In this document: positions 37,568 through 44,447 of the stretch, piece after piece
Position numbering within the stretch: position 1 is the first letter of the stretch
Layout of the letters: every line of letters begins with the position of its first letter
Source: Ancylobacter aquaticus
Lineage (GTDB): Bacteria > Pseudomonadota > Alphaproteobacteria > Rhizobiales > Xanthobacteraceae
Reading direction: 5' to 3'
NCBI RefSeq assembly: GCF_004339465.1
Contig: NZ_SMFY01000001.1
Coordinates: forward strand, 682,001 to 746,000
Length of the DNA stretch: 64,000 nucleotides
The notes under the pieces: generated by a model
Told to the model about the DNA's origin: nothing
What the model saw: only the letters and a program-made list of their open reading frames with translations
Database searches by the model: none
Position numbers and translations under genes: made by a program

Positions 37568-38782
37568 TTGCGCCCGCTTGACGAAGCCGAGCCCGAGCCG
37601 GCTCCACACATCCGTCAGCGCATGCGCGAGATGGGCGATCAGCGCGTCGTCATGGAACGGGCCGGGGGTGATGCGCAGCCGCTCCGTGCCGCGCGGCACG
37701 GTGGGGTAGTTGATCGGCTGGATATAGATGCCGTGCTCGGCCAGCAGCATGTCGCTGGCCGCCTTGCAGGCCTCGGCATCGCCGACCATGATCGGCACGA
37801 TATGCGTGTCGGTGACAAGCTGTGGCAGGCCAGCCAGATCCAGCGCCCGCTTGACCTTTGCGACCTGCGCCTGCTGGCGGGTGCGCTCATTGGGCGAGGC
37901 CTTGAGGTGGCGCACGGAGGCGGCGGCCGCCGCCGCCACGGCCGGGGGCAGCGCGGTGGTGAAGATGAAGCCGGGCGCGTAGGAGCGCACCGCGTCCATC
38001 ACCGCCCGCGTGCCGGTGATGTAGCCGCCGACCACGCCGAACGCCTTGCCCAGCGTGCCCTCGATCACGTCGATACGGTGCATAACGCCGTCACGCTCGG
38101 CAACACCGGCGCCGCGCGGGCCATACATGCCGACCGCGTGCACTTCGTCCAGATAGGTCATGGCGCCGTAGCGCTCGGCGAGGTCGCAGATGGCGCCGAT
38201 GGGGGCGACGTCGCCATCCATCGAGTAGATGCTCTCGAACACGATCAGCTTCGGCCGTTCGCCGGCGGCGCGCAGCAGCTCTTCCAGATGGGCAAGGTCG
38301 TTATGGCGGAACACCACCTTGTCGCGCCCGGCCTGGCGCACGCCCTCGATCATCGAATTGTGGTTCAGCGCGTCCGACAGGATCAGGCAGTCGGGGATCA
38401 GCCGGGCGAGCGTCGCGATGCCGGTCTGGTTGGAGACATAGCCTGACGTGAAGACGAGGCCGGCCTCCTTGCCGTGCAGGTCGGCAAGTTCCGCCTCCAG
38501 CTCCACCACGGCATGGCTGTTGCCGGAAATGTTGCGGGTGCCGCCCGCCCCGGCGCCGGTCTGCCGGGCCGTAGTGCACATGGCCTCCACCACGGCCTCG
38601 TGGCAGCCCATGCCGAGATAGTCGTTGGAGCACCAGATGACGATGTCGCGCTTGCCCTGCGGCGTGTGCCAGATGGCGTGCGGGAAGCGCGCGGTGTCGC
38701 GCTCGATTTCGGCGAAGGTGCGGTAGCGACGCTCATTCTTGAGCGTATCGACGGCATCCTGAAAGAAACGGGCGTAGTCCAT
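37556..38782 (-). CDS. hemA: 5-aminolevulinate synthase
   Basis: First step of haem synthesis by the C4 route: glycine plus succinyl-CoA gives ALA, using PLP. The protein is 408 residues from ATG 38782. Signatures are the N-terminal [44 protein letters not shown] and [15 protein letters not shown]. The PLP lysine is in [14 protein letters not shown]. The C4 route is a hallmark of alphaproteobacteria. Lying next to hemN, it places two haem enzymes beside the fix regulators. No FixK box was found before this gene. Confidence 0.97.
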
Positions 38783-38916
38783 GGCGCATCCCAACTGGGC
38801 ATCGCCGGCGACCCAGCGAGGCACTGTCCGGGCACCATGAACTTTGGAGCCGTTCCGATCAACCCGGCAGCCCCCCGACGCGGCGATCGGGCGCGCCTAT
38901 TGGAAACGCGCCGTGC

Positions 38917-39423
38917 TCACGTCTCCGCGAGACTGCGCACCTGCGCCAGCGTCATCGGCACCGAGGCGCTGCCGTTGAAATAGACGAAGCGCAGCGTGCG
39001 CCGGAGCGAGGTCATGGCGGCGGGCAGCGGGTCGTAGCGGAAGCTGCCGCCGCCCAGATGCGGCATCACCGCCCCCACATCGGTGGTCTCGCCGGTCTCG
39101 ACCCGCAGCAGGCTGACCCGCGTGCCCTCCGCCGTCATGGCGTCGAACGGAATGCGGGCGAGGCGCAGGAAGCTGGTCGGGTCGCTGGCGGTGGCGAAGC
39201 TCTCGACGAACGCCTTTTCCACCAGATCGAGGTCGGACTCGACGGGGGCGTGCCCAACCTCTTCCGGCGGCTGCGGCAGATGCGGCGTCTGCCATTGCGC
39301 GGCGCGCGGCGGCTGGCCGTGATTATGGCCGTGGGAATGCGCATGGGCTTCAGCGTGGGAATGGCTGTGCCCGCCGGCGCCGGCGCCGTGGTCGTGGTGA
39401 TGATGGTCGTGGCCACGATGCAT
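38917..39423 (-). CDS. His-rich protein downstream of guanidine hydrolase
   Basis: A 168-residue protein. Residues 1-35 contain 15 histidines mixed with Gly, Asp and Ser (HDHHHHDHG and HSHSH-type repeats), the pattern of nickel- or zinc-storing tails on metal chaperones such as HypB. The rest (about 65-168: EKAFVESFATASDPTSFLRL, then GGGSFRYDPLPAAM) is a compact domain that I do not recognise. It starts 36 bases after the guanidine-hydrolase gene and must share its riboswitch-controlled transcript. Since guanidine hydrolase needs nickel and helper proteins in Synechocystis, a nickel-handling role is proposed, not shown. Confidence 0.8.
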   Translation of the reverse strand: MHRGHDHHHHDHGAGAGGHSHSHAEAHAHSHGHNHGQPPRAAQWQTPHLPQPPEEVGHAPVESDLDLVEKAFVESFATASDPTSFLRLARIPFDAMTAEGTRVSLLRVETGETTDVGAVMPHLGGGSFRYDPLPAAMTSLRRTLRFVYFNGSASVPMTLAQVRSLAET

Positions 39424-39459
39424 ATGTTTTAGGCCTTCTGCGTGCTTCGAGGCGCGGGT

Positions 39460-40683
39460 TCAGAAACTCACCGGCTTGTCGATCATGTGCTTGTGGCTGC
39501 CCAGCTTGCCATGGGCGAGCATGGAGCCGAGCGCTTCCACCACGACGCGGGTGGCGAACAGGGCGGTGATGTCCGAGGTGTCATAGGGCGGGGATACCTC
39601 CACCACTTCCAGCCCGCACAGTCCTTCGGCCGCCACCAGCCCGAGGATCTTCAGCGCCTCGCGCGGCAGGAAACCGCCGGGTTCGGGCCAGCCGGTGCCG
39701 GGCACGAAGCCGCAGTCGATGCTGTCGACATCGAACGAGATGTAGACCGCATCGGCGTCCTTCCAGGCGAGTTCGAGCGCGATCTCGGCCGCCTTCTCCA
39801 GCCCGATCTTCTCGATATCGTCGATGGTCAGCACGTTCGTGCCGCGCTTCCTCGCCTCCTGCACGCCATAGCGCGGCACCTGCCAGCCGCCGATGCCGAG
39901 CTGCACGAGGTTCTTGGGCGAGACATTTGGCAAATTGGTCGCCCAGTACCAGGGCGTGGTGTGCATGCGCTCGTCGAGATCCTTTTCCTGGATGTCGATA
40001 TGCCGGTCGAAATGGATGATGCCGATGCGCTTCGACGTGCATTCGGCGATGCCGCGCACGCAGGGAAAGCCGATGGAATGGTCACCGCCCAGCATGATCG
40101 GCAGCGCGCCGGAGGAGAAGACGTGGCTGACGCCCTTGGAAATCTGGTCGAAGCTCTTTTCCAGATTGGCGGGAATGGTGAACACGTCGCCCGCATCGCA
40201 CAGCGTCATCTGCTCGCGCAGGTCGACGCCCAGCTCGTAATTATAAGGGGTGTAGAGCGCCGAGATGCGGCGGATGCCCTGCGGCCCGAAGCGGGTGCCG
40301 GGGCGGTAGGTGGTCCCTGAGTCGAAGGGAATGCCCAGCACGGCGGCGTCGTAACGGCCGACATCGCGGACATTCTCGACGTAAGGGGCCTTCATGAAGG
40401 TGTTGATGCCGGCGAAATGCGGAAGCTCGCCGCGCGCAAAGGTCGGGATCGACTTGTCGGTGATCGAGTCGGCGCCGGGCAGGCCCATGTCGAGCGCCCA
40501 TTGCTGCTCCTTGCGCCAGCCGTCTTCCGACAGCCTTTCCTCGGCCTCCAGCGCCTTCCAGCCCTGCATCCCCTTGATCTCGAAATTGGGGTGATGAAGG
40601 CGCCGGCGCTGCGGGACGGCCGCAAGGCCCGCCTTGCGGGTGGAGCGCTCGGGCGCGTGACGCATCGTGTGGGAATGACGCAT
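39460..40683 (-). CDS. gdmH: guanidine hydrolase (ureohydrolase family, GdmH-like)
   Basis: Predicted to split guanidine into urea and ammonia with a nickel pair. The protein is 407 residues from ATG 40683. The ureohydrolase metal motifs are LGGDHSIGFP, HFDRHIDIQE (with Arg in place of the Ala of agmatinase DAHxD) and SFDVDSIDCGFVPGTG. The extended N-terminus and the stretches DERMHTTPWYWATN and QLGIGGWQVPR recall Synechocystis GdmH rather than agmatinase or arginase; this comparison is from memory. A guanidine-I riboswitch directly upstream strongly supports guanidine as substrate. Older pipelines would call it speB/agmatinase. Confidence 0.88.
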   Translation of the reverse strand: MRHSHTMRHAPERSTRKAGLAAVPQRRRLHHPNFEIKGMQGWKALEAEERLSEDGWRKEQQWALDMGLPGADSITDKSIPTFARGELPHFAGINTFMKAPYVENVRDVGRYDAAVLGIPFDSGTTYRPGTRFGPQGIRRISALYTPYNYELGVDLREQMTLCDAGDVFTIPANLEKSFDQISKGVSHVFSSGALPIMLGGDHSIGFPCVRGIAECTSKRIGIIHFDRHIDIQEKDLDERMHTTPWYWATNLPNVSPKNLVQLGIGGWQVPRYGVQEARKRGTNVLTIDDIEKIGLEKAAEIALELAWKDADAVYISFDVDSIDCGFVPGTGWPEPGGFLPREALKILGLVAAEGLCGLEVVEVSPPYDTSDITALFATRVVVEALGSMLAHGKLGSHKHMIDKPVSF

Positions 40684-40774
40684 GTCATGTCTCCATTCGT
40701 CGAAGGGCCTGACGACCTTCGCGAGGAGACCCCGACGCATGCGGAAGGGTCTTCGCCGCGAATGCCGCCGCGCG

Positions 40775-40885
40775 AGCCTCCCGGGCTTTTGTCCCGCCGT
40801 GGACCGGGCGATGGCGGCTCGCCCGGCTGCCCCTCTCGGACCAGCACGCCGCGACACATGGCCGGCGCCGGAACCCTAGGGACAT
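40775..40885 (-). promoter_or_regulatory. guanidine-I (ykkC) riboswitch
   Basis: Read on the minus strand, all three invariant blocks are in order and spacing: CTAGGGTTCCG (from 40879), CTGGTCCGAGAG, and CACGGCGGGACAAAAGCC followed by CGGGAG. A variable GC-rich hairpin (GCCGGGCGAGCCGCCATCG, then CCCGG) sits between the second and third blocks. This is the consensus of the guanidine-I aptamer. It ends about 90 bases before the gdmH ATG. That leader contains a possible hairpin (GACCC ... GGGTC) that could be the expression platform. Guanidine binding normally turns the downstream genes on. Confidence 0.95.
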
Positions 40886-40925
40886 TTGACTTGAGCCTAG
40901 ATCGGTCCGGCCCCCGGCGAAAGCC

Positions 40926-41588
40926 TTATTTGGTTCCGAAGATGCGGTCCCCGGCATCGCCGATGCCCGGCACGATATAGCCATGGTCGTTGAGGTGGCT
41001 GTCGACCGCCGCCGTGTAGACCGGCACGTCGGGATGGGCGTCGTGCAGCGTCTTCAGCCCCTCCGGCGCGGCGATCAGGCAGACGAACTTCACCGACTGG
41101 CACCCGGCGGCCTTGACCTCCGATACCGCCGCCGCCGCCGAATTGCCGGTGGCCAGCATCGGGTCGAGGATGATGGCGGTGCGCTCGAAAATATCGCGTG
41201 GCAGCTTCAGATAATATTCCACCGCGGCCAGCGAGACCGGGTCGCGGTAGAGCCCGACATGGCCGACGCGGGCGGCGGGCAGGATTTCCAGCATGCCCTC
41301 CAGAATGCCGCCGCCGGCGCGCAGCACCGAGACGAGGCACAGCTTCTTGCCGGCGAGGATCGGCGCCTGCATCGTCGTCAGCGGTGTCTCGATCTCGATC
41401 AGCTCGGTCGGCATGTCGCGCGTCACCTCATAGGCGAGCAACATGCTGATTTCGCGCAGCAGCAGCCGGAACTCGTTGGCCGGGGTGCGCGAGCGGCGCA
41501 TCAGCGTCAGCTTGTGCTGGATCAGCGGGTGGTCGACGACGACGGTGTTCGCCGGCAGGGCGGCCTTGGGGCTGGTGGGCGCGTTCAT
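40926..41588 (-). CDS. upp: uracil phosphoribosyltransferase
   Basis: Converts uracil and PRPP to UMP. The protein is 220 residues from ATG 41588. Signatures are [40 protein letters not shown], the PRPP loop [17 protein letters not shown] and the uracil-binding end [20 protein letters not shown]. In yeast this enzyme (Urc6) is part of the URC uracil-degradation route. The divergent neighbour genes are homologues of the other two core URC proteins, so here upp may serve catabolism as well as salvage. It is transcribed toward the guanidine riboswitch. Confidence 0.96.
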
Positions 41589-41801: not shown

Positions 41802-43070
41802 ATGTCCGTCAATGCCAGTGCAGGCGGTCGTTCCCGCAATCATATCGTCCTTACCTCCCACGGCGCGTCCACCGGCGTCGCCGCCGACGGGCCGGTGCTG
41901 AACTGGGGCGCGCCCGACCCGGCCCTGCGCGGCCCTGTCGTCGCCACCCTCACCGACATGAAGCGGCGTAACGCCATCGGCACCCATGCCGGCGGCTATG
42001 CGGTCTATCGCGCGCTGGCCATCGCCGCCGGGGCGCTGCCGGCCGATTTCAAGGCCGACCTCACCAATACCTCGCCCTCCGACATCATCGGCCCCCACCC
42101 GCAATGGGGCGATCCGGGCAAGATCGTCTCGCTCGACCCGTTCGGCCACATGATCGGCGAGGCTTTCGGCGACGCGGTGGCGGCCGGGCTCGACGTGCGC
42201 CCGAGCATCGCCATCACCCGCGCCCATATCGACATGCCGGAAATCCGCGACGCGCTGCGCGCCGGCCGGCTGAAGATCGACGGCGACATCATCGGCCCGA
42301 AGGGAGACGTGCGCGTCACCAAGGCGGCGATCGAGCCGGTCTGGTACCTGCCCGGCATCGCCGAGCGCTTCGGGGTAAGCGAGGGCGCGCTGCGCCGGGC
42401 GCTGTTCGAGCACACCGGCGGCATGTTCCCCGAACTCGTCACACGCGGCGACCTCAAGGTCTTCCTGCCCCCCATTGGCGGCATGACGCTCTATCTGTTC
42501 GGCGATCCCGCCAGGATCGGCGACGGCGTCACCCCGCTCGCCTGCCGGGTGCATGACGAGTGCAACGGCTCGGATGTGTTCTCCTCCGACATCTGCACCT
42601 GCCGGCCCTATCTCGCCCATGGAATCGAGATCTGCGTGGAGATGGCGCAGAAGGGCGGCGTTGGCCTCGTCGTCTACAACCGCAAGGAGGGGCGCGCGCT
42701 GGGCGAGGTAACGAAGTTCCTCGTCTACAACGCCCGCAAGCGGCAGGAGGGCGGCGACCTGCCCGAGACCTATTTCAAGCGCACCGAATGCGTCGCCGGG
42801 GTGCAGGACATGCGCTTCCAGGAGCTGATGCCGGACGTGTTCCACTGGCTCGGCATCACACGGATCGACCGCTTCGCCTCGATGAGCGACATGAAGTTCA
42901 ACGCGCTGGAGCGGGCCGGCATCGCGGTGGGCGAGCGGGTGGCGATCCCCGAGGACCTGATCCCGCCCGATGCCCGGGTCGAGATGGAGGCGAAGGTGTC
43001 GGCCGGTTATTTCGGCGGCGGCTTCCAGAGCCAGTTCGACGCCACGCAAGGGCGGGCGCTGGAGGAGTAG
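41802..43070 (+). CDS. URC1-type GTP cyclohydrolase II homologue (uracil catabolism)
   Basis: A 422-residue protein. Residues 1-200 are an N-terminal extension absent from RibA (NAIGTHAGGYAVYRALAIAA, TNTSPSDIIGPHPQWGDPG). Residues about 210-400 are a cyclohydrolase II domain. The zinc ligands Cys254, Cys265 and Cys267 (HDEC ... DICTC) have the same spacing as in E. coli RibA. GLVVYNRKEGRALGEVTKF replaces the RibA GRNIGL motif, so the substrate probably differs. The pairing with DUF1688 and upp matches the yeast URC1/URC4/URC6 set, in which this protein is thought to act on a uracil nucleotide. Databases may call it ribA; a riboflavin role is unlikely. Confidence 0.88.
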   Translation: MSVNASAGGRSRNHIVLTSHGASTGVAADGPVLNWGAPDPALRGPVVATLTDMKRRNAIGTHAGGYAVYRALAIAAGALPADFKADLTNTSPSDIIGPHPQWGDPGKIVSLDPFGHMIGEAFGDAVAAGLDVRPSIAITRAHIDMPEIRDALRAGRLKIDGDIIGPKGDVRVTKAAIEPVWYLPGIAERFGVSEGALRRALFEHTGGMFPELVTRGDLKVFLPPIGGMTLYLFGDPARIGDGVTPLACRVHDECNGSDVFSSDICTCRPYLAHGIEICVEMAQKGGVGLVVYNRKEGRALGEVTKFLVYNARKRQEGGDLPETYFKRTECVAGVQDMRFQELMPDVFHWLGITRIDRFASMSDMKFNALERAGIAVGERVAIPEDLIPPDARVEMEAKVSAGYFGGGFQSQFDATQGRALEE

Positions 43071-43192: not shown

Positions 43193-43220
43193 TTGGTTTC
43201 AATTGGAAGAAGCAACCCCG

Positions 43221-44447
43221 ATGATTCCCCCCGAACTCGCCGCCCTGCGTTCCCCGGCCGCCGTGCGGGCCCGCAGCCATCAGGTGCTCGACTATGTCCG
43301 GGAAGGGCGCTCGCCGCATTTCACCGTCGATCTCGGCGCGCTGGACGGCGTGGCGGATTATGTGGCTGAGGTGACCCGGCTGGACTATCCGGCCCTCGAT
43401 ATCCCCTATCACAGCCGCTGGAGGCACTTCGATGCCGGCGGGGTGGCGCGCTGGCAGGCTCTGGCCGCACGGCTGGAGGGCGTCGACGCCGCCGAGCGGG
43501 CGCGCACCATGATCGACCTCGGCGTGGTGAGCGTGCTGCTCGACGCCGGCGCGGGCGACGTCTGGCGCTATCATGAGGAAGCGACGGGCCTCACCATCGG
43601 CCGCTCGGAAGGGCTGGCGGTGGCGAGCCTCGACATGTTCGCGGCTGGCGGTTTCGCCTCGGATCCCGCGCAACCGCTGCGTGCCGACGCATCGGCCCTG
43701 GTCGCCCTTGATGCGGCAACGCTCGGCCGCTTCTTTCAGGTCTCCGAGGCCAACCCGCTGGTCGGGCTTGCCGGGCGGGCGGCGCTGCTGAACCGGCTCG
43801 GCCAGGCGGTTGCGGCGCGTCCGGATGTGTTCGGCCCGGCCGGGCGGCCGGGTGGGCTCTATGACACGCTGGCCCCGCAAGCGCGCATCGGCCGGCTGCC
43901 GGCCGAGAGCATTCTCAAGGCGCTGCTCGACGGGCTCGCGGTGATCTGGCCGTCGGGGCTGGAGGTGGCGGGCGTTGCCATGGGCGATGCCGGGCGCCAC
44001 CCGGCGGTGCGGATGGGCGATCTCTCCGACCAGCTTGTGCCGTTCCACAAGCTGTCGCAATGGCTGACCTATTCGCTGCTGGAGCCGTTCGAGGCATCGG
44101 GCCTTGCCATCACCGATCTCGACGCGCTCACCGCGCTGCCGGAATACCGCAATGGCGGGCTGCTGATCGACCTTGGGGCGATCGTGCCGCGCACACCGCT
44201 CGATCCGGTGCAAAAGCACGCGGTGTCGTCGGAGATGGTCGTCGAATGGCGCGCACTCACCGTGGCGCTGATGGACGGGCTCGCCGACCGGGTGCGCGAG
44301 CGGCTCGGGCTCGACGCCTCGCAATTCCCGCTCGCCAAGCTGCTGCAAGGTGGCACGTGGACGGCGGGGCGCCGCATCGCTGCCGAGCGCCGCCCCCCCG
44401 CCGGCCCGCCGCCGCTCGCCATCGACGCCGACGGCACGGTGTTCTGA
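43221..44447 (+). CDS. DUF1688 / URC4-like uracil-catabolism protein
   Basis: A 408-residue protein of the DUF1688 family, the bacterial homologue of yeast Urc4/Urg3. Recognisable stretches are LRSPAAVRARSHQVLDYVRE, DYPALDIPYHSRWRHFDAGG, ARTMIDLGVVSVLLDAGAGD and FRPxx-type end LIDLGAIVPRTPLDPVQ. The start is ATG 43221 behind GGAAGAAG; a TTG at 43203 is less likely. Yeast Urc4 is required for growth on uracil as nitrogen source, but its reaction is not firmly known. With the upstream URC1-like gene and divergent upp it completes the core URC set. Confidence 0.9.
   Translation: MIPPELAALRSPAAVRARSHQVLDYVREGRSPHFTVDLGALDGVADYVAEVTRLDYPALDIPYHSRWRHFDAGGVARWQALAARLEGVDAAERARTMIDLGVVSVLLDAGAGDVWRYHEEATGLTIGRSEGLAVASLDMFAAGGFASDPAQPLRADASALVALDAATLGRFFQVSEANPLVGLAGRAALLNRLGQAVAARPDVFGPAGRPGGLYDTLAPQARIGRLPAESILKALLDGLAVIWPSGLEVAGVAMGDAGRHPAVRMGDLSDQLVPFHKLSQWLTYSLLEPFEASGLAITDLDALTALPEYRNGGLLIDLGAIVPRTPLDPVQKHAVSSEMVVEWRALTVALMDGLADRVRERLGLDASQFPLAKLLQGGTWTAGRRIAAERRPPAGPPPLAIDADGTVF

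Follow-up and report, generated by a model that had tools for sequence, protein, structure and literature searches.

We describe here a locus in a 64,000-nucleotide stretch of the Ancylobacter aquaticus contig NZ_SMFY01000001.1 (positions 682,001 to 746,000; hereafter the window), which belongs to a genome of 11 contigs and 4.83 Mb. On the minus strand of the window upp (40926-41588), a Guanidine-I riboswitch, the guanidine hydrolase gene gdmH, a gene for a histidine-rich protein that we name hisX, and hemA (ATG at 38782) follow one another in this order. The initial annotation had placed the unit at 39460-40885: the riboswitch and gdmH do stand there, but the second gene, hisX (39423-38917), was overlooked. 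Our analysis points to a guanidine-controlled two-gene unit, gdmH-hisX, in which HisX would act as a nickel chaperone, and we consider this explanation, taken as a whole, to be probable. The features are the following.

40776..40890, minus strand: Guanidine-I (ykkC subtype 1) riboswitch aptamer, from the RF00442 match and covariation in relatives
40684..40775, minus strand: leader from the aptamer to the start codon, from folding
39460..40683, minus strand: gdmH, guanidine hydrolase (guanidinase), 407 residues, from the open reading frame (ORF), Pfam Arginase, solved relatives, marker residues and tree
38917..39423, minus strand: hisX, histidine-rich protein of 168 residues and candidate nickel chaperone, from the ORF and the coupling to gdmH
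39310..39423, minus strand: N-terminal part of HisX rich in histidine (about residues 1-38), with disorder predicted by AlphaFold2
38920..39225, minus strand: core of HisX towards the C-terminus (about residues 67-168), for which AlphaFold2 predicts helices and strands

The comparison with relatives covered 30 genomes of the genus, 297 of the order and 385 of the class, as well as 80 named loci that carry HisX. In the order gdmH was counted at E 1e-100 or better, and HisX was sought by tblastn.

The riboswitch and the guanidine hydrolase

The minus-strand riboswitch proposed by the initial annotation was recovered when the whole window was searched with Rfam cmscan: RF00442 (Guanidine-I) matches at 40890-40776 with 84.0 bits (gathering threshold 63, E 1.6e-13), and the alignment spans all 107 positions of the model. 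In an alignment of 20 elements (19 distinct) from the window's own and related genomes the pairing is kept in 98.7% of the cells, compensatory two-sided changes are seen at 13 of the 25 pairs of the four-helix structure, 43 columns are invariant, and the covariation score was reached by none of 500 shuffles. The element also lies upstream of the genes on the same strand at 73 of the 80 named loci, in one of these 73 clipped by the locus end. Judged by these alignments, the window element would be a guanidine-binding riboswitch.

Its mode of action can be approached from the leader. Folding indicates that the Shine-Dalgarno sequence GGAGAC is able to pair with GUCUCC upstream of it, and an alternative hairpin, AGACCC/GGGUCU, which overlaps this pairing, was noticed by eye. 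Simple pattern scans revealed no promoter-like or terminator-like sites in the leader; the single terminator-like match in 38700-41000 falls within hisX, while 1.5 such matches are expected in that region by chance. Translational control is suggested and no more, as the upstream pairing of the Shine-Dalgarno sequence is predicted in 12 of the 21 genus leaders scored.

The first gene behind the riboswitch starts with ATG at 40683, encodes 407 residues, and its stop codon ends at 39460. As the initial annotation had noticed, the product is a ureohydrolase with the stretches HFDRHIDIQE and DERMHTTPWYW; it matches Pfam Arginase with 258.8 bits. The family assignment, together with the label "agmatinase family protein" on two annotated relatives, might speak for agmatine or some other guanidino compound as the substrate, yet we regard this as very improbable. 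The protein scores below both NCBIfam agmatinase cut-offs (162.1 against 174.3 for TIGR01230 and 209.7 against 302 for PRK02190.1), and its closest solved relatives are the guanidine hydrolase of Synechocystis (7esr/7oi1, 549 bits) and the guanidinase of Nitrospira inopinata (9fek, 529 bits), followed by a guanidinobutyrase with 176 bits. In a tree of 22 ureohydrolases, whose long outgroup branches were flagged by the tool, the 14 GdmH rows, both solved enzymes included, and a divergent enzyme from genome G168 at their base share one side of a branch with support 100/100 (91/87 for the 14 rows without G168), and five other ureohydrolases of the window's own genome fall outside. A guanidine riboswitch in front of the gene argues in the same direction. 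Thus the window enzyme is, by all these sequence comparisons, a guanidine hydrolase and not an agmatinase; the correction of the agmatinase label foreseen by the initial annotation is borne out, and such labels on relatives are corrected with it. Neither of the sequence outcomes that the initial annotation had named as refuting, a covariance score under the threshold and a place among true agmatinases, was seen. We are nearly certain that riboswitch and guanidinase are here a further example of a known pair.

A ureohydrolase fold is expected to have six metal ligands, and GdmH carries all of them, as H202, D226, H228, D230, D318 and D320, which we presume to have these roles. Four further residues (Thr, His, Trp and Glu at positions 105, 222, 313 and 344 of the N. 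inopinata enzyme) are named in an excerpt of the comammox paper as possibly important for guanidine catalysis (PMC11410670). Mapped through the alignment with 9fek, the numbering of which is two ahead, all four are found in GdmH as T125, H241, W332 and E362. The five paralogues of the own genome have Thr or Ala in place of the marker Trp; they also differ at position 359, with Asp instead of the Glu of the GdmH rows. Since the marker Glu is also present in four of these paralogues, the Trp is the telling residue, which alone separates GdmH from all five. Of the named loci 79 of 80 carry the Trp motif, as do 31 of 32 in the order and all 10 in the class; the exception among the named loci has no gdmH, and the exception in the order, G168, has Ser at this position.

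The G168 enzyme (L222 4177-5508, minus strand) is a divergent GdmH-like ureohydrolase; if translation begins at an upstream start, its own N-terminus would be rich in histidine. Directly 3' of its gene lies a HupE-like gene, and HisX was not found in that genome. The window's genome additionally harbors a tandem of ureohydrolase genes (L220, from G000:C2, 8262-9461 and 9461-10417, plus strand), the nearest solved relatives of which are 3-guanidinopropionase and an agmatinase; no HypA was found in this genome.

HisX and its coupling to gdmH

The hisX ORF starts 36 nucleotides past the gdmH stop codon on the same strand. Its product contains 18 histidines, 15 of them within the first 40 residues, and no cysteine. 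In the AlphaFold2 model residues 12-24 and 26-38 have pLDDT under 50, and the block means of the core lie between 76 and 97, save for about 58-67 around residues 121-140. Across 58 HisX sequences 26 columns are invariant, and 20 of these lie at residue 64 or beyond; the histidine tail is long and variable: the first 50 residues hold 32% histidine at the median and 12% at the lowest (78 members scored). A second form of the protein was observed at L103-L112, where the QWQTPH motif is absent and HLHSHVHG-like stretches are found instead; seven aligned members of this form are 28-35% identical to the window HisX.

HisX gave no Pfam or NCBIfam matches up to E 1, no sequence-related PDB chain was found, and 22 members scanned gave chance-level matches only, none of them to UreE. 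The domains UreE_N and UreE_C are missing, hhalign aligned a single column with UreE, and the HypA domain was not found in HisX either. The literature searched, seen in part and with two founding papers falling outside it, contained no description of the protein.

The distribution of HisX follows that of gdmH. Within the genus both are present in 30 of 30 genomes. Within the order gdmH is present in 32 genomes of 297 and HisX in 30, all of these among the 32; at the 30 gdmH loci that were fetched a histidine-rich ORF lies directly downstream on the same strand in every case. Of the two remaining order genomes with gdmH, G101 has a divergent HisX (the 31st) and G168 has the HupE-like gene in its place. 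In the class gdmH was detected in 11 of 385 genomes and HisX in 13, and HisX stands behind gdmH in 11 of 11. The two class genomes with HisX only are G685, which retains the riboswitch and gene pieces, and G448, a weak match for which we have no explanation. Directly upstream of HisX at 79 of the 80 named loci, which include Ancylobacter, Bradyrhizobium, Mesorhizobium, Sinorhizobium/Ensifer, Methylopila, Jiella and Nisaea, stands gdmH, and the distance from its stop to the hisX start is 9 nucleotides at the median over 79 loci and often 2. Two Rhodobacterales plasmids show the same gene order, with HisX annotated as a hypothetical protein. The Fisher test for co-occurrence gives p 4e-39 by genome and 1e-22 by genus, the genomes not being independent of one another. 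The link between HisX and gdmH is close to exclusive.

Two of the odd loci can be described further. In G685:C49 (L259 985-2001) behind a Guanidine-I riboswitch of 81.8 bits stands the 5' part of a substrate-binding-protein gene, overlapped in another frame by the 3' part of a HisX gene; the locus is apparently a remnant left after an internal deletion. At L177 (Jiella endophytica) HisX stands alone: within 12 kb of it neither gdmH nor the importer nor the riboswitch gave a match.

The position of hemA, which starts 134 nucleotides downstream of hisX in the window and is a near neighbour of HisX at 20 of the 80 loci, could indicate that HisX belongs with hemA or is a passenger rather than a partner of gdmH. 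These 20 loci (L114-L132 and L138) are all of the Ancylobacter type, however, and the other 60 have gdmH in 59 cases and a convincing hemA in none. As a general case a partnership with hemA is refuted by this comparison, and for HisX at large the idea is hardly credible.

Nickel supply and the proposed role of HisX

According to the excerpted literature, the GdmH of Synechocystis is nickel-dependent and is matured by GhaA and GhaB (PMC12186494, PMC12930504, PMC8390497), and the authors of the 2024 comammox paper call the nickel-loading mechanism of the N. inopinata guanidinase unclear (PMC11410670, in part). By homology the window copy of GdmH would be expected to hydrolyze guanidine and to depend on nickel as well. 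HypA was found neither in the own genome nor at any of the 80 named loci, and it was missing in 25 of the 32 order genomes with gdmH. A gene of the nickel-transporter family HupE/UreJ (PF04955) is present at 43 of the 80 loci, directly behind hisX at 32 and upstream at 11.

One could argue that HisX stores or buffers nickel, presumably Hpn-like in role, and does not dock on GdmH as a chaperone. A long and variable histidine tail and the adjoining HupE/UreJ genes would suit such a function, but the invariant columns, the core that is for the most part confidently predicted and the near one-to-one coupling with gdmH all fit a partner better, and we consider a store unlikely. Somewhat less likely still is that HisX supports GdmH in a structural, stabilising or regulatory way, with the histidines secondary. 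The same coupling and the tight spacing would be accounted for, as would an invariant core joined to a tail that is variable and thin in some members; against this stand the high median histidine content of the first 50 residues, the nickel enzyme of Synechocystis and the HupE/UreJ genes that adjoin at many loci.

The urease of these organisms has also to be considered. Strong urease alpha matches (E below 1e-50) were found in 33 of 36 genomes searched, with partial or weak ones in two and none in G060, and HisX might therefore be a second UreE which serves urease and is merely parked beside gdmH. This is very improbable, as G060 has both gdmH and HisX with no urease match, and the own genome already encodes a UreE with a histidine-rich tail, to which HisX has no similarity. 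HisX resembles UreE in pairing a histidine tail with an adjoining nickel enzyme; no sequence relation to UreE, HypA or other nickel chaperones was found.

Since the Synechocystis enzyme requires nickel and is matured by GhaA/GhaB, HisX is most likely the alphaproteobacterial counterpart of these proteins. That it is the dedicated nickel chaperone of GdmH, presumably binding metal, is, from our comparative analysis, somewhat better than an even bet. The Synechocystis PCC 6803 operon, as the sources describe it in part, comprises the gdmH gene sll1077, the HypA/HypB paralogues GhaA/GhaB and an ABC importer. It shares with the alphaproteobacterial loci the Guanidine-I riboswitch, a homologous GdmH and, at most of the 80 loci, the importer, whereas these loci have HisX instead of GhaA/GhaB, with no HypA, and the window lacks the importer. 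The N. inopinata locus (APC permease and guanidinase with a Guanidine-I riboswitch, and no HypA/HypB in the excerpted account; PMC11410670) is similar in combining the riboswitch and GdmH without HypA/HypB, but no APC permease was seen in the window neighbourhood and HisX is present there. The clusters of metformin/dimethylguanidine hydrolases (hypA, hypB, two ureohydrolases and hupE, as partly described in PMC11399263) likewise unite a nickel ureohydrolase with nickel partners and a nearby HupE. Their ureohydrolases are more distant (132 bits to the window GdmH), and HypA/HypB take the place that HisX has here.

We therefore propose a working scheme. Binding of guanidine by the leader riboswitch would permit expression of gdmH and hisX, which are presumably co-transcribed. 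The histidine-rich tail of HisX would capture Ni2+ and deliver it to GdmH, so that HisX would fill the role of the HypA/HypB paralogues GhaA/GhaB, and GdmH would split guanidine into urea and ammonium. The remaining nitrogen would be released by urease, encoded elsewhere in the genome. The own genome has two strong urease-alpha matches, hence urea is probably usable as a nitrogen source; the initial annotation's view of a degradation-only response undersells what is likely a route of nitrogen assimilation. More broadly, we see about an even chance that HisX is the founding member of a new family of nickel chaperones dedicated to their enzymes, a family in which a disordered histidine tail is joined to a small alpha-beta core and which replaced the HypA/HypB route for GdmH across Alphaproteobacteria, is induced by guanidine together with its client and lets HypA-less bacteria make an active dinickel ureohydrolase. 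With an uncharacterised and nearly invariant partner gene at hand, the nickel supply of GdmH outside cyanobacteria can be put directly to the test in rhizobia and Ancylobacter, which are culturable, and the results suggest that many alphaproteobacteria associated with plants and soil draw nitrogen from guanidine.

The cassette in relatives and the neighbourhood

At most named loci the riboswitch and gdmH are separated by the genes of an ABC importer (substrate-binding protein at 55, permease at 57 and ATPase at 58 of 80). Close orthologues of the importer (84% or more) are kept in three of the 30 genus genomes (G005, G019 and G021), and the other 27, including that of the window, have only a paralogue with 46-50% identity; in the own genome the operon of this paralogue includes a luciferase-like monooxygenase gene. 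Among 28 genus loci read by script, the three genomes that keep the importer are the only ones in which the aptamer does not stand directly before gdmH, and therefore the window riboswitch probably came to abut gdmH through importer loss. In Bradyrhizobium sp. BTAi1 a transposase-like ORF (L139 1688-2722, minus strand; label by eye) splits the binding-protein gene from the rest of the guanidine cassette.

Neither a guanidine carboxylase nor a known guanidine exporter was present among 12 neighbourhood proteins scanned, in agreement with the initial annotation. A second ykkC-like RNA in the own genome precedes an EamA-like gene; such an EamA-linked RNA fits the orphan subtype 2d and not the guanidine class, according to the excerpted text of PMC7266159. 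Four sub-threshold ykkC-like elements of 35.7-41.4 bits (L002 1501-1606, minus strand, which is G000:C5:209482-209587, and L261, L262 and L263) each precede a DMT/EamA-like transporter gene, labelled by eye, and are candidates for subtype 2d. The transporter ORF behind the element of the own genome is just 134 residues long.

Close to the guanidine unit lie genes for a GTP cyclohydrolase II-like protein (41811-43067, plus strand) and a DUF1688 protein (43203-44444, plus strand), which together with upp on the minus strand form a group that resembles the URC uracil-catabolism set.
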